Below, one piece after another: positions 6,346 to 39,378 of a stretch of DNA of 39,555 nucleotides (the first letter of the stretch is position 1; each line of letters begins with the position of its first letter). Source of the stretch: Nitrospira sp. CG24E (lineage in GTDB: Bacteria > Nitrospirota > Nitrospiria > Nitrospirales > Nitrospiraceae); the NCBI GenBank assembly GCA_002869895.2, contig NEWP02000005.1, positions 43,921-83,475 on the forward strand, given 5' to 3'. The notes under the pieces were generated by a model. It did no database searches, was not told where the DNA came from, and worked only from the letters and a program-made list of their open reading frames with translations. Position numbers and translations under genes: made by a program.

Positions 6346-7482
6346 ATGGTGGATATTTCCCTACTCGCCTTCGCTCTTGTATTTGCCCTCGCTTTCGCCA
6401 ACGGGGCTAACGACGTCTCGAAAGCTGTCGCTACCTTGGTCGGTAGCGGCGTCACTAACTACCGGACAGCTATCGCATGGGGGACTGCCTGGACCATGGC
6501 CGGCGCAGCGTTGGCCGCCTTTGTCGCAAGCTCGATGATCAATACGTTTGGTCATGGACTCATCCAGCCAGGCACGAGCATCGGACCGGCCGTGACCTTG
6601 GCAGTCTTGACCGGAGCGATGGCCTGGATCCTCTTCGCCGCTCGCACCGGACTCCCAGTCTCAACGACCCATGCACTCACCGGAGCCATCGTCGGCATAG
6701 GCTTGATCGCCTTCGCTGGAGAAGGATTGATCTGGTCCGCGATCGGGAAAAAGATTGCCCTTCCCTTGTTGGTCAGCCCGTTCCTCGCTCTCGCCGCTTC
6801 TCTAGTCATCCATCCGGCTATTCGCGCGCTCGCGAGAAAGTGGGAAGGCTCCTGCTTGTGCGTGATGCCGGCCTCGCGGGCACTGGTGACTGTCGATGCA
6901 CGAGGCGGCACCAGAACTCTGCTTCAGGCCACGAGCTTCGGCTCGCCGGTTATGGCAGTGCCATCCCAATGCGACCGCGCCGGGTTACAGGGCCTGGTTG
7001 TGGGACTCGATACGATTCACTGGGTTTCCAGCGGGCTTGCATCATTTGCCCGTGGCACGAACGACGCGCCGAAAATCGTGGCGATGCTTCTGCTCGGCAA
7101 TGCGACAACCGCATGGCCCAGCACTTTGTCCCAACTTACCGTCTTCGGGGGAGTCGCCGTTGCAATGGGACTGGGCAGTTATTTCGGAGGGCGACGCGTC
7201 ACTGAAGTCCTTGCCGAAAAGGTCACCCGCATGGACCATAGCGAGGGATTATCCGCGAATCTAACCACAGCCGGATTGGTCTTGGCATCAGGGACGCTCG
7301 GGCTGCCGGTCTCTACAACTCACGTCAGCAGCTCGGCGATCATCGGAATTGGCCTTCTCAAAGGCTGGAACAACGTACGCTGGAGAACGGTGCGCGACAT
7401 GGTCCTGGCTTGGGTCGTCACGCTGCCAGCATCGGCCCTCCTCGCTTGTATCGCCTACTTCATCCTCTCGCGAATTCTTTAG
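6346..7482 (+). CDS. PiT-family inorganic phosphate permease
   Basis: The 378-residue polytopic membrane protein has the duplicated PiT signature: FANGANDVSKAVATLVG near the N terminus and ARGTNDAPKIVAML in the second half, plus PVSTTHALTGAIVG and PVSTTHVSSSAIIG. PiT proteins are low-affinity phosphate symporters. Placement nine bases behind arsS suggests a role linked to arsenic, such as phosphate supply under arsenate stress or movement of arsenate or organoarsenicals. This is inference from context only. The stop TAG at 7480-7482 runs directly into an inverted-repeat element. Confidence 0.92.
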   Translation: MVDISLLAFALVFALAFANGANDVSKAVATLVGSGVTNYRTAIAWGTAWTMAGAALAAFVASSMINTFGHGLIQPGTSIGPAVTLAVLTGAMAWILFAARTGLPVSTTHALTGAIVGIGLIAFAGEGLIWSAIGKKIALPLLVSPFLALAASLVIHPAIRALARKWEGSCLCVMPASRALVTVDARGGTRTLLQATSFGSPVMAVPSQCDRAGLQGLVVGLDTIHWVSSGLASFARGTNDAPKIVAMLLLGNATTAWPSTLSQLTVFGGVAVAMGLGSYFGGRRVTEVLAEKVTRMDHSEGLSANLTTAGLVLASGTLGLPVSTTHVSSSAIIGIGLLKGWNNVRWRTVRDMVLAWVVTLPASALLACIAYFILSRIL

Positions 7483-7607
7483 CAGGCTGTTGAGAAAGTC
7501 CGCCAGCTTTGTTCTCGCGTCGCTCAGAGGCTCAACATACGGCACAGAGTATGCCTCGCCTCTTCGCTCGCTGCGGCCGCGCTGGACGGCCTTTCTGAAC
7601 AACCTGC
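7482..7607 (+). repeat. inverted-repeat (MITE-like) element, copy A
   Basis: The 126-base element begins at the last base of the PiT stop codon. Its ends are imperfect inverted repeats of about 26 bases: GCAGGCTGTTGAGAAAG at the left pairs with CTTTCTGAACAACCTGC at the right, and TCCGCCAGC with GCTGGACGG. Inner blocks CAGAGGCTCAAC and CTCGCCTCTTC-CTCGCTGCGGCC recur in copy B at 34735. It has no coding capacity beyond short spurious frames. It could fold as a long hairpin at the mRNA 3' end. I know of no characterised family to assign it to. Confidence 0.8.
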
Positions 7608-7774
7608 AAGCATCAAGCCCTTGCGTTTCGGTCATGTTCACGAGAAAACCAGGGAAATACTCCATTTCGGGTGCGTGTAAGCGTCGGGCCGGGCTCAAAA
7701 TTACGTCTGGCGATGACAGATAATAGTACTTGAATGTCCCTGTTCTGCCTCCTCCATTTCTTGATGTGAAATGG
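7608..7774. other. intergenic stretch between repeat A and the toxin promoter
   Basis: I see no gene here. A minus-strand frame runs through it and repeat A, but its predicted protein has no recognisable domain, has no ribosome-binding site, and continues antisense into the PiT gene. Confidence 0.4.
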
Positions 7775-33210: not shown

Positions 33211-34734
33211 GTGCAAACTGCTCCATCGGTGATGAACTCTGAGGCTAACAGCGAAATTTTCGCGCTGGTGCCCCCTTCGTTGCGCCGACTCTTCGATCCG
33301 CAGGCCAATGCGCTCCCGGCATTGCAGGCAACCTGCCAGAAAATTCTTAACATGAGCGGCGACACTTCGAGCCCCGAGGCCCTCGCGCAAGTCGTCAGCC
33401 GCGATCCCGGGTTGACCTGCAAAGTCCTCCAGATCGCGAACGGAATCGCGTACAGCCCACAGCAGACCATCACCTCCGTAGCCCATGCGGTGATCTGGCT
33501 TGGGCTGGATACAGTTCGTGCGCTCGTGGCCACGGCACAGTTGATGGAACATCTGGAGCAAGCGCCGGATCGCCGCCCGCTCTTGAGCCGCTTGATCGCC
33601 AAGGCACTCTTCGCATCGACACATGCGTTCGAGCTCGGCACAGCCATGCACTATCCTCAACCGGGACAGCTCTTCAGCGCCGCCCTGCTCTACTCATTCA
33701 CCGATCTGGTCATTGCCTACCAAGCGCCGGATCTGTATGAATTACTTGTCGAAGCGCGAACACCAGTCGACGAATCCAACATTCTCGGTGTCTCGAAAGT
33801 TCGCTTTGCGACGGCCTTAGCTCGAACATGGGTCCTGCCGACCGGCTTAGTGGACCTCATCGGCGCCCCGACGCCTCCCATGGGGACCCGTTGGCAGACC
33901 GATCACCAGATATTTGTAGGGCTCGTCGCAGGTGCGAACAGTCTCGTCTCCGCCATGGCCAATTCATTGAAGCCCGACGTCGCAGGACGCATTCGTCGCA
34001 CCCTCCAGCAGGGTACCGCTTTGCCGGAGCGCAGCTTGCAAGAAGCCTTGACTCGCGCCTTCGACAAGGGCCGACAACTCTCCCGTTCCGTTGGAATTAC
34101 TGAGACCCTCATCGCCCAGGCCTCGGCCCCAACTCCCACAGTGACTCCCGTCATCTCGTCACCCAAGATCCAAATCCCATCGCCTAGTCAGCCAAGCAGC
34201 CAGACCGTCCCACCGATCCAGGCACAACCGTTCGAAACCTTGCAAAGGTTTCAGACTTCCTTGTTAGCGGCAAAAGACTTCAATAGCCTCCTGTCGGCTC
34301 TAGTCAAGGCACTGCATGATGACGGGGGATTCACACGGGTGGCGCTGGCACTCTTGAATCCTGGCGATACCGACCAACTACTGGGCCGAGTTGTCGTCGG
34401 TGTCGATGAGCCAACTCAGCACTTGTGCAGCTTCACAGGATCACTCACTGTCGATCACCCGCTGTTCTTGCGGGTACTTAAACGGCACGATCCAATCTTG
34501 GTATCGGATGCTGCCGCCGAAGGGCCGCAATCTCTTCACCCGACATTCGCTGCAACCTGGCAAACCTCATCTGCCGTCCTGGCCCCTATCCGTGTCGGCA
34601 ACCGACCGATCGGACTCCTCTATTGCGACCGAGGCGCCCAATCCACTCAGGTATCGTCCCACGATCTACAGTCCTTCCAGCTGTTCTTTGGACAAGCCAT
34701 TCTCAGCATCAATCGGCTGGCTGGAATCCTCTAA
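33211..34734 (+). CDS. HDOD-domain signalling protein with C-terminal GAF-like domain
   Basis: The 507-residue protein starts at a GTG with AGGAGG seven bases upstream. Residues about 20-220 form an HDOD domain (LPALQATCQKIL, VVSRDPGLTCKVLQIANG, ITSVAHAVIWLGLDTVRALVATAQLM), related to HD phosphohydrolases but lacking the metal His-Asp pair. A Pro/Ser/Gln-rich linker (about 305-345) leads to a GAF-like domain (FNSLLSALVKALHDDGGFTRVALALLNP onward). Such proteins sit in regulatory networks for motility, the cell cycle or stress; no ligand is visible. Its stop TAA runs straight into repeat copy B. Confidence 0.85.
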   Translation: MQTAPSVMNSEANSEIFALVPPSLRRLFDPQANALPALQATCQKILNMSGDTSSPEALAQVVSRDPGLTCKVLQIANGIAYSPQQTITSVAHAVIWLGLDTVRALVATAQLMEHLEQAPDRRPLLSRLIAKALFASTHAFELGTAMHYPQPGQLFSAALLYSFTDLVIAYQAPDLYELLVEARTPVDESNILGVSKVRFATALARTWVLPTGLVDLIGAPTPPMGTRWQTDHQIFVGLVAGANSLVSAMANSLKPDVAGRIRRTLQQGTALPERSLQEALTRAFDKGRQLSRSVGITETLIAQASAPTPTVTPVISSPKIQIPSPSQPSSQTVPPIQAQPFETLQRFQTSLLAAKDFNSLLSALVKALHDDGGFTRVALALLNPGDTDQLLGRVVVGVDEPTQHLCSFTGSLTVDHPLFLRVLKRHDPILVSDAAAEGPQSLHPTFAATWQTSSAVLAPIRVGNRPIGLLYCDRGAQSTQVSSHDLQSFQLFFGQAILSINRLAGIL

Positions 34735-34943
34735 CAGGATACTGAGAAAATCCGCCAGCGTCGTTTTCGCATCATTCAGAGGCTCAACGCTGAGTAACGC
34801 TGTATCGGAGGCCGAAACTCTGGAAGGGTTTTTCCGTTCGCCAAGACCCATTACAAGGGCGAACGGCCACACGAAGTGCGGCGCGCACCTCCTCGCCTCT
34901 TCACTCGCTGCGGCCTTGCTGGACGGCCATTTTGAGCATCCTA
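34735..34943 (+). repeat. inverted-repeat (MITE-like) element, copy B
   Basis: The 209-base element starts at the base after the HDOD-GAF stop codon. The left end CAGGATACTGAGAAAATCCG and the right end CGGCCATTTTGAGCATCCTA are imperfect inverted repeats. Left block TCAGAGGCTCAAC and right block CTCGCCTCTTC-CTCGCTGCGGCC match copy A at 7482. About 85 extra bases in the middle account for the length difference. The plus frame reads LRKSAS..ASFRGST as in copy A, but I take that as shared DNA, not a gene. Confidence 0.8.
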
Positions 34944-38642: not shown

Positions 38643-38730
38643 CAGGATTCAGTCTCTTACAACCAAATAAACCAGACAGACCAAATAAACCAAATGAACA
38701 AGACAGACTGGAGGACTTTTCAGCATCCTA
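38643..38730 (-). repeat. inverted-repeat element, degenerate copy C
   Basis: On the minus strand the first base after the barrel gene's TAG begins TAGGATGCTGAAAAGTCC, which matches the outer ends of copies A and B (CAGGxTxxTGAGAAAxTCC). At the far side CAGGATTCAG (38643-38652 on plus) is a shorter version of the same end. The core differs: it is a simple tandem of CCAAATAAACC and AGACAGAC units. It separates the barrel gene from the Slp gene. Confidence 0.55.
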
Positions 38731-39378
38731 CTAAAAATGATAGGAGATGCCGACCAAGACATGCTGTGCCCTATAGATACCTTCAAAGCCTCCTCCCGTG
38801 ACAAACGCATCGTCAAACCGTAAGGTAGTCCCTGTGTATTTATATTCGGTAAAGACTGCGACATAAGGAGTGACGAATGCTCTTAACCCTGCCAGCACAT
38901 TCCACCCTCCGGAGACACTGGTATTGCTCCGTATTCCACCGACAGCTGAATGATCGAGTCTGGCAATCACCGTGCCCACACCGGCTCCTACATAGGGCTG
39001 TAACGTCCGCCCAGGATACCGGGCAAGAAGGTTGACTCCTAGAGTAGTCAGACTCAAATGGATGCCGGGAGCGTCATCCAGATTTTTGATGTGCGGCGTG
39101 GTCTGCAAAATTTCTCCTTCGACCCCCAACCAACTATGCTCGGCAAAATATCCAAGCTTAGCCCCATAGCTGATCGAATTCTTGAGGTCAAAGTCGGGCG
39201 TGAAGATGGTCCCTTCACGCCCGTTTGTCCCTGAGATGCCGGTGATGCGATCTGCGAAATTGACCCCAACCGTTCCAGCCACATACATTTCGGCAGAAGC
39301 GGGACCCGGTATGCCGAAGGTCGCAATCAAGAGCCAGGCGAGGACGAGACCAGCAGCAATCGATATCTTCGTCTCCAC
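38731..39378 (-). CDS. outer-membrane beta-barrel protein (OmpA/OmpW-like size class)
   Basis: The 215-residue protein starts at a GTG with GGGAGG about ten bases upstream. It has a signal peptide (hydrophobic 7-28, cleavage near ASAEM), alternating amphipathic strands (LGVEGEILQTTP, LQPYVGAGVGTVIARL, VAVFTEYKYTGTTLRF) and a C-terminal aromatic VGISYHF. The terminal Phe is the BAM recognition signal of outer-membrane proteins. It is likely an eight-strand barrel. The function is unknown. Confidence 0.85.
   Translation of the reverse strand: METKISIAAGLVLAWLLIATFGIPGPASAEMYVAGTVGVNFADRITGISGTNGREGTIFTPDFDLKNSISYGAKLGYFAEHSWLGVEGEILQTTPHIKNLDDAPGIHLSLTTLGVNLLARYPGRTLQPYVGAGVGTVIARLDHSAVGGIRSNTSVSGGWNVLAGLRAFVTPYVAVFTEYKYTGTTLRFDDAFVTGGGFEGIYRAQHVLVGISYHF

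Follow-up and report, generated by a model that had tools for sequence, protein, structure and literature searches.

The window analysed here, a 39,555-nucleotide stretch of the Nitrospira sp. CG24E genome (contig NEWP02000005.1, positions 43,921 to 83,475), contains copies of a dispersed repeat that is very probably a non-coding MITE of about 199 bp with IS5-type ends and a YTAR target-site duplication. Its junctions with stop codons would, on this reading, stem from the overlap between the YTAR target and stop codons combined with selection. A MITE of the IS5 type is an ordinary kind of element; what is notable here is how abundant it is, that its junction restores the stop codon, and that its core is structured.

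Distribution and structure of the element

A covariance model (R1) was built from 21 copies of the repeat. In the 3.45-Mb Nitrospira-type assembly, 103 matches to R1 were detected at E ≤ 0.01 (about 100 copies), far above chance, which confirmed that the dispersed repeat proposed in the original prediction is real. In the 24 further genomes of the genus that were examined, counts ranged from 30 to at least 86 copies each, 86 being the scoring cap. Membership was patchy in other families of the order, and of 148 genomes drawn from the whole phylum, 56 had at least one copy. In an exact-pattern scan of 84,980 species, the only titles among the matches listed were Nitrospira, Nitrospirae, Nitrospiraceae or Nitrospirota, and plasmid records gave no match. 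The original prediction had assigned the repeat to no characterised family. Rfam gave no match in the window at the gathering threshold, and no description was found in a search of the open-access literature. The family is apparently undescribed.

The intact element of ~199 bp consists of a 124-bp hairpin on the left, a degenerate tail of ~76 bp and a second terminal repeat, GTTTTTCCGCAGCCTG. Terminal repeats with the motif CAGG[A/C]TG occupy both outer ends (CAGG[A/C]TG on the left, GTTTTTCCGCAGCCTG on the right) and recur in copies beyond the window. The right terminal repeat lies 75 to 77 bp past the hairpin in most copies where it is recognisable, and in 62 of 135 copies the right end was above the 97% quantile of the null. 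The right boundary first drawn was thus too short, since intact copies run on for ~76 bp to the second terminal repeat. Short, non-coding and multicopy, the element has the general properties of a MITE.

The features in the window are listed in Table 1. Copies A and B, which both begin 0 nt past a same-strand stop codon, were matched by the single model R1 at 140 and 89 bits and are therefore relatives, as originally proposed. Their imperfect inverted arms of ~25 bp and inner blocks proved to be the arms of one long hairpin, as judged from folding z scores and compensatory pairs. Folded as RNA, copy A was more stable than its shuffles on the two strands (z of -4.0 and -5.3). The tail of copy A persists to about position 7640, with the right end gone. 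The two different core lengths noted earlier were also correct: the loop of copy B is longer than that of copy A, and its right end is not recognisable. In a subset of copies (window 34735-34943, C16:2828-3035, C6:115973-116163 and C20:93193-93382), the loop is 65 to 85 bases longer. At the same stop codon as copy B, the sister genome G023 carries an internally deleted remnant. Downstream of the gene that copy B adjoins, several relatives (L311 and L313-L316) have a related but oppositely oriented hairpin (GCAGGCTGCTCAAACGG), which suggests repeated independent insertion at one gene end.

Table 1. Element copies and adjoining target sites in the window
Feature	Position	Strand	Details
Left target-site copy TTAG	7479..7482	+	Contains the TAG stop of the PiT-like gene 6346-7482
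Copy A, hairpin part, 124 bp, CAGGCTGTT subfamily	7483..7606	+	R1 140.1 bits; fold z -4.0/-5.3; in A1
Copy A, tail remnant CTTGCGTTTCGGTCATG	7607..7640	+	Aligned to tails of L002/L004/L005/L007; without right terminal repeat
Left target-site copy CTAA	34731..34734	+	Contains the TAA stop of the HDOD-GAF gene (called 33232-34734)
Copy B, hairpin part with enlarged loop, 209 bp	34735..34943	+	R1 88.9 bits; right tail not recognised
TTAG at end of gene 38731-39378	38731..38734	-	TAG within is the stop codon
Copy C, degenerate, non-R1	38643..38730	-	Outer tips TAGGATGCTGAAAAGTCC / GAATCCTG shared; core differs (TTTGGTTTATTTGG tract)

Copy C had been described as a degenerate copy of the same element, a claim that held only for its periphery. 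It has the outer tips and the TTAG junction in common with the R1 element and nothing else: the model search returned no R1 match for it, its TTTGGTTTATTTGG core is of another core type, and its fold was no better than shuffles (z of -0.26 as RNA and 0.36 as DNA). Copy C belongs to the TTTGGTTT core type.

The hairpin arms of R1 copies covary. At the hairpin ends the arms change together (CAGGCTGTT/AACAGCCTG, CAGGATGCT/AGCATCCTG and CAGGGTGCT/AGCACCCTG), and the inner arms read either AGAGGC/GCCTCT or AGACCC/GGGCCT. Changes on both sides that preserve pairing were present in 15 of 39 pairs, compared to 6.4 in shuffles, and the same count fell to 1-2 when partners were slid by one to three columns. 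Template switching is a mutational process that corrects imperfect palindromes. The covariation could reflect either such template-switch correction or selection for folding, as DNA or as RNA. Arm covariation of this strength is not needed by a DDE transposon and goes beyond what the MITE reading accounts for.

In the same genome, the terminal tips, usually following TAR, also cap several non-homologous and mostly palindromic cores (for example, C20:61860, C1:60314 and C20:215746, all on the + strand), several of which begin exactly at a stop codon. These other cores include TTTGGTTTG/AACCAGA tracts, AAGGTTGAGG palindromes and GGGTGGCTGGGACGATCC types. When examples were folded, six of six proved stabler than almost every shuffle (z from -2.4 to -6.1), a hand-picked set that provides a lead and not a statistic. 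Given common tips on non-homologous hairpins and the pairing maintained in R1, we tentatively raise the idea, which we hold to be doubtful, that a palindromic core is required for survival or movement. If true, foldback structure would be a selected property of a DDE-transposed element, and the repeats would form a modular family of capped hairpins, not a simple deletion derivative of an IS.

Target-site duplication and relation to IS5-type insertion sequences

The sequences flanking the element on its outer sides are the same 4-mer, mostly YTAR. YTAR lay on both sides of 35 copies, and in 29 of these the two flanks were identical, versus 14.1 expected by random re-pairing, and none of 5,000 re-pairing shuffles reached 29. 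ATAG/ATAG flank pairs were also observed. A duplication of TA alone, as in IS630-like elements, was rejected, as the outer Y and R positions also agree between the two sides. Two copies of 199 bp have relatives in which the flanks join without a gap once the element and one 4-mer are removed. For the copy at C20:54648, the flanks are adjacent around a single 4-mer in the closest relative, G023 (left flank 96% identical). The site of the copy at C20:195939 is unoccupied in G008, G004, G047 and G007 and carries an insert in G046. Divergence has since altered the 4-mers at the unoccupied sites, which now read CTGA, CCAG and CCGG. Target duplication and sites lacking the element are both features expected of a MITE.

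Insertion sequences with matching ends (1318-1326 bp) were found in three related genomes, and a fourth, G023, carries one of ~1.38 kb that is cut by the contig end. Those in G008 and G015 (L095/L097; 1318/1319 bp) have the terminal repeat CAGGCTGCGGAAAAAC and the flanks CTAG/TTAG and CTAG/CTAG; the complement of CAGGCTGCGGAAAAAC is GTTTTTCCGCAGCCTG, the consensus right end of the MITE, an exact match at 16 of 16 positions. The IS in G023 (L099) has CAGGCTGTTGACAAAC, which agrees with the subfamily of copy A, and the IS in L110 has the ends CAGGCTGTTGAAAAAC/CAGGTTGTTGAAAAAG. Where readable, IS flanks are YTAR. Two of the three transposases tested scored above the cutoff of 140 for the NCBIfam IS5 model NF033581, at 281 (L097) and 237 bits, and all three carry PF05598 (DUF772) and PF01609 (DDE). 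The IS with copy A-like ends fell below both NCBIfam cutoffs, at 119.8 against 140 for IS5 and 214 against 270 for IS1182. Assignment to the IS1182 family was rejected, the transposases scoring 182-214 bits, under its cutoff of 270. In Escherichia coli, the duplication motif of IS5 is YTAR (PMC10359306). The element therefore shares its terminal repeats with an autonomous IS whose transposase belongs to IS5, and it has the YTAR duplication motif. In L110 (positions 1-1326), the right end of the IS adjoins the stop of an open frame that spans 389 codons and has a coding score of 117, as the MITE does; no coding frame precedes the other IS ends tested.

Judged from its sequence, the element is most likely a MITE mobilised by IS5-type ISs of related species; we infer mobilisation by IS5-type transposases because the terminal repeats match. 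In the genome studied here, a search with one IS transposase query found a single transposase relative, 39% identical and interrupted by two stops. The source of the MITE may thus lie outside the assembly or be extinct in this genome.

High-copy extragenic palindromes are also a feature of REP/REPIN elements, in which a Y1 (RAYT) transposase would move a single-stranded DNA hairpin beside a conserved flanking tetranucleotide. With its ~100 copies, covarying arms and TAG-containing flank, the element resembles such a palindrome, and the genome contains three Y1_Tnp matches, two of which are not IS200-like by eye. However, a symmetric 4-bp duplication and joined sites without the element are hallmarks of DDE transposition, and the terminal repeats agree with IS5-type ISs; in these properties the element differs from REP/REPIN elements with RAYT. 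No Y1 gene was found embedded in the element. The sole R1 copy near a Y1 gene (C28) is found past a folE-like gene ~0.5 kb away; the IS200-like unit, the one of the three Y1 genes concerned, is not flanked by it. We rejected a REP/RAYT origin on the grounds that this nearest Y1_Tnp gene is an IS200-like unit with ends of its own and that the element has a DDE-type duplication, and we regard a REP/REPIN-like element as highly improbable. The two Y1_Tnp genes that appear RAYT-like by eye, and not IS200, are at G000 C89:31523-31858 and C1:147324-147662 (L036 and L035).

Junctions with stop codons

The original prediction held that the element always lies at a stop codon, which was the case for all three copies in the window but not across the genome. 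In 1.23 Mb of the same genome containing 70 copies, tabulated with home-made gene calls and not standard annotation, 23 copies began exactly past a same-strand stop, none lay within a called gene, and in 48 the left end was no more than 400 bp from the end of a gene on the same strand. Among copies with YTAR at the left, 19 of 35 were at an exact stop, compared to 15.6% of all non-coding YTAR sites (p = 3.6e-7). However, YTAR contains TAG/TAA, so the background near stops is already high: in the first 60 bp past a stop, the stop itself accounts for 46% of the YTAR sites available, and 59% of intact-copy ends (23/39) were at that position (p = 0.07). Most of the exact-stop excess is explained by YTAR targeting together with the absence of copies within genes. 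A small excess remains (23/39 versus 46%, p = 0.07).

Insertion at gene ends, as first suggested, is therefore real, but it is an indirect consequence of the YTAR target sequence. Were the transposase or its complex actively targeting sites of translation or transcription termination beyond its choice of YTAR, an exact-stop frequency above the 46% expected would be seen, as it is among the 39 intact-copy ends near a stop, and the IS in L110 adjoins a stop as well. Against the matched background, however, the excess falls short of significance, and the other IS ends tested do not lie behind coding frames; we consider active targeting unlikely.

It is the host gene that provides the stop codon, which the duplication restores. 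In related genomes, PiT orthologues end in CTAG, GTAG or CTAA whether the element is present or absent. Because orthologues without the element still end in a stop, the element is not the supplier of the stop codon, contrary to one of the two original suggestions.

In the mechanism we propose, the transposase would pick YTAR, and any TAG or TAA stop preceded by C or T is such a site. Duplication would place a copy of YTAR on each side of the insert, leaving the gene with its own stop and its full reading frame. Insertions elsewhere in genes would be harmful and removed by selection, and the duplicated stop would protect the gene. Because the stop would be kept by duplication while other in-gene insertions would be lost, survivors would build up right at stop codons and in the intergenic DNA 3' of genes.

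The same junctions could be read as those of a functional 3' RNA element, a terminator or mRNA stabiliser selected at gene ends with mobility secondary, and a hairpin at the mRNA 3' end had been part of the original prediction. Compensatory changes are present in both stems, one third of copies lie directly past a stop, and the same 48 of 70 have a same-strand gene end nearby. However, positions are not conserved between species: at the stop of PiT orthologues there is either no element, a decayed copy or some other sequence, and occupancy varies at C20:195939. Nor was orientation preference significant in intact copies, in which 14 left ends and 9 right ends adjoin stops, and by inspection no U-run follows the stem, unlike in an intrinsic terminator. 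Orientation-specific function was rejected; the bias toward left ends among copies without a right end (32 versus 4) is probably one of ascertainment, because the search model requires the left hairpin. We find selection as a 3' RNA element improbable. Variation of occupancy and decay between species at the same gene end, together with about equal numbers of left and right ends, favours a parasite tolerated where it does no harm over a conserved 3' RNA signal, as far as sequence comparison can tell.

Relation to known elements and implications

The MITE resembles IS5-family MITEs in being short and non-coding, with terminal repeats equal to those of IS5-type ISs of the same genus and a 4-bp YTAR duplication. 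In contrast to these, a covarying hairpin fills its left 124 bp, its copy number is high across the genus, and about a third of its copies form exact stop junctions. ERIC, Chunjie and QMITE2, compared here by their published descriptions, are likewise short intergenic elements. Chunjie measures 178-235 bp; ERIC, too, is found at the 3' ends of genes, and for QMITE2 a location mostly in 3' untranslated regions of open reading frames is reported (PMC10969869); a stop-codon-restoring YTAR junction is absent from that review of bacterial MITEs.

These repeats are abundant in Nitrospira, which are key nitrifiers, and should be masked and annotated in their genomes: the element lengthens gene 3' ends and can be mistaken for an RNA element. 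With the same caps present on unrelated palindromic cores, foldback structure may play a part in movement or spread. The proposed mechanism offers a simple, testable reason why a mobile element can lie precisely at stop codons: the motif it targets overlaps with the stop, the duplication restores it, and the 3' end of a gene would become a harmless landing place.
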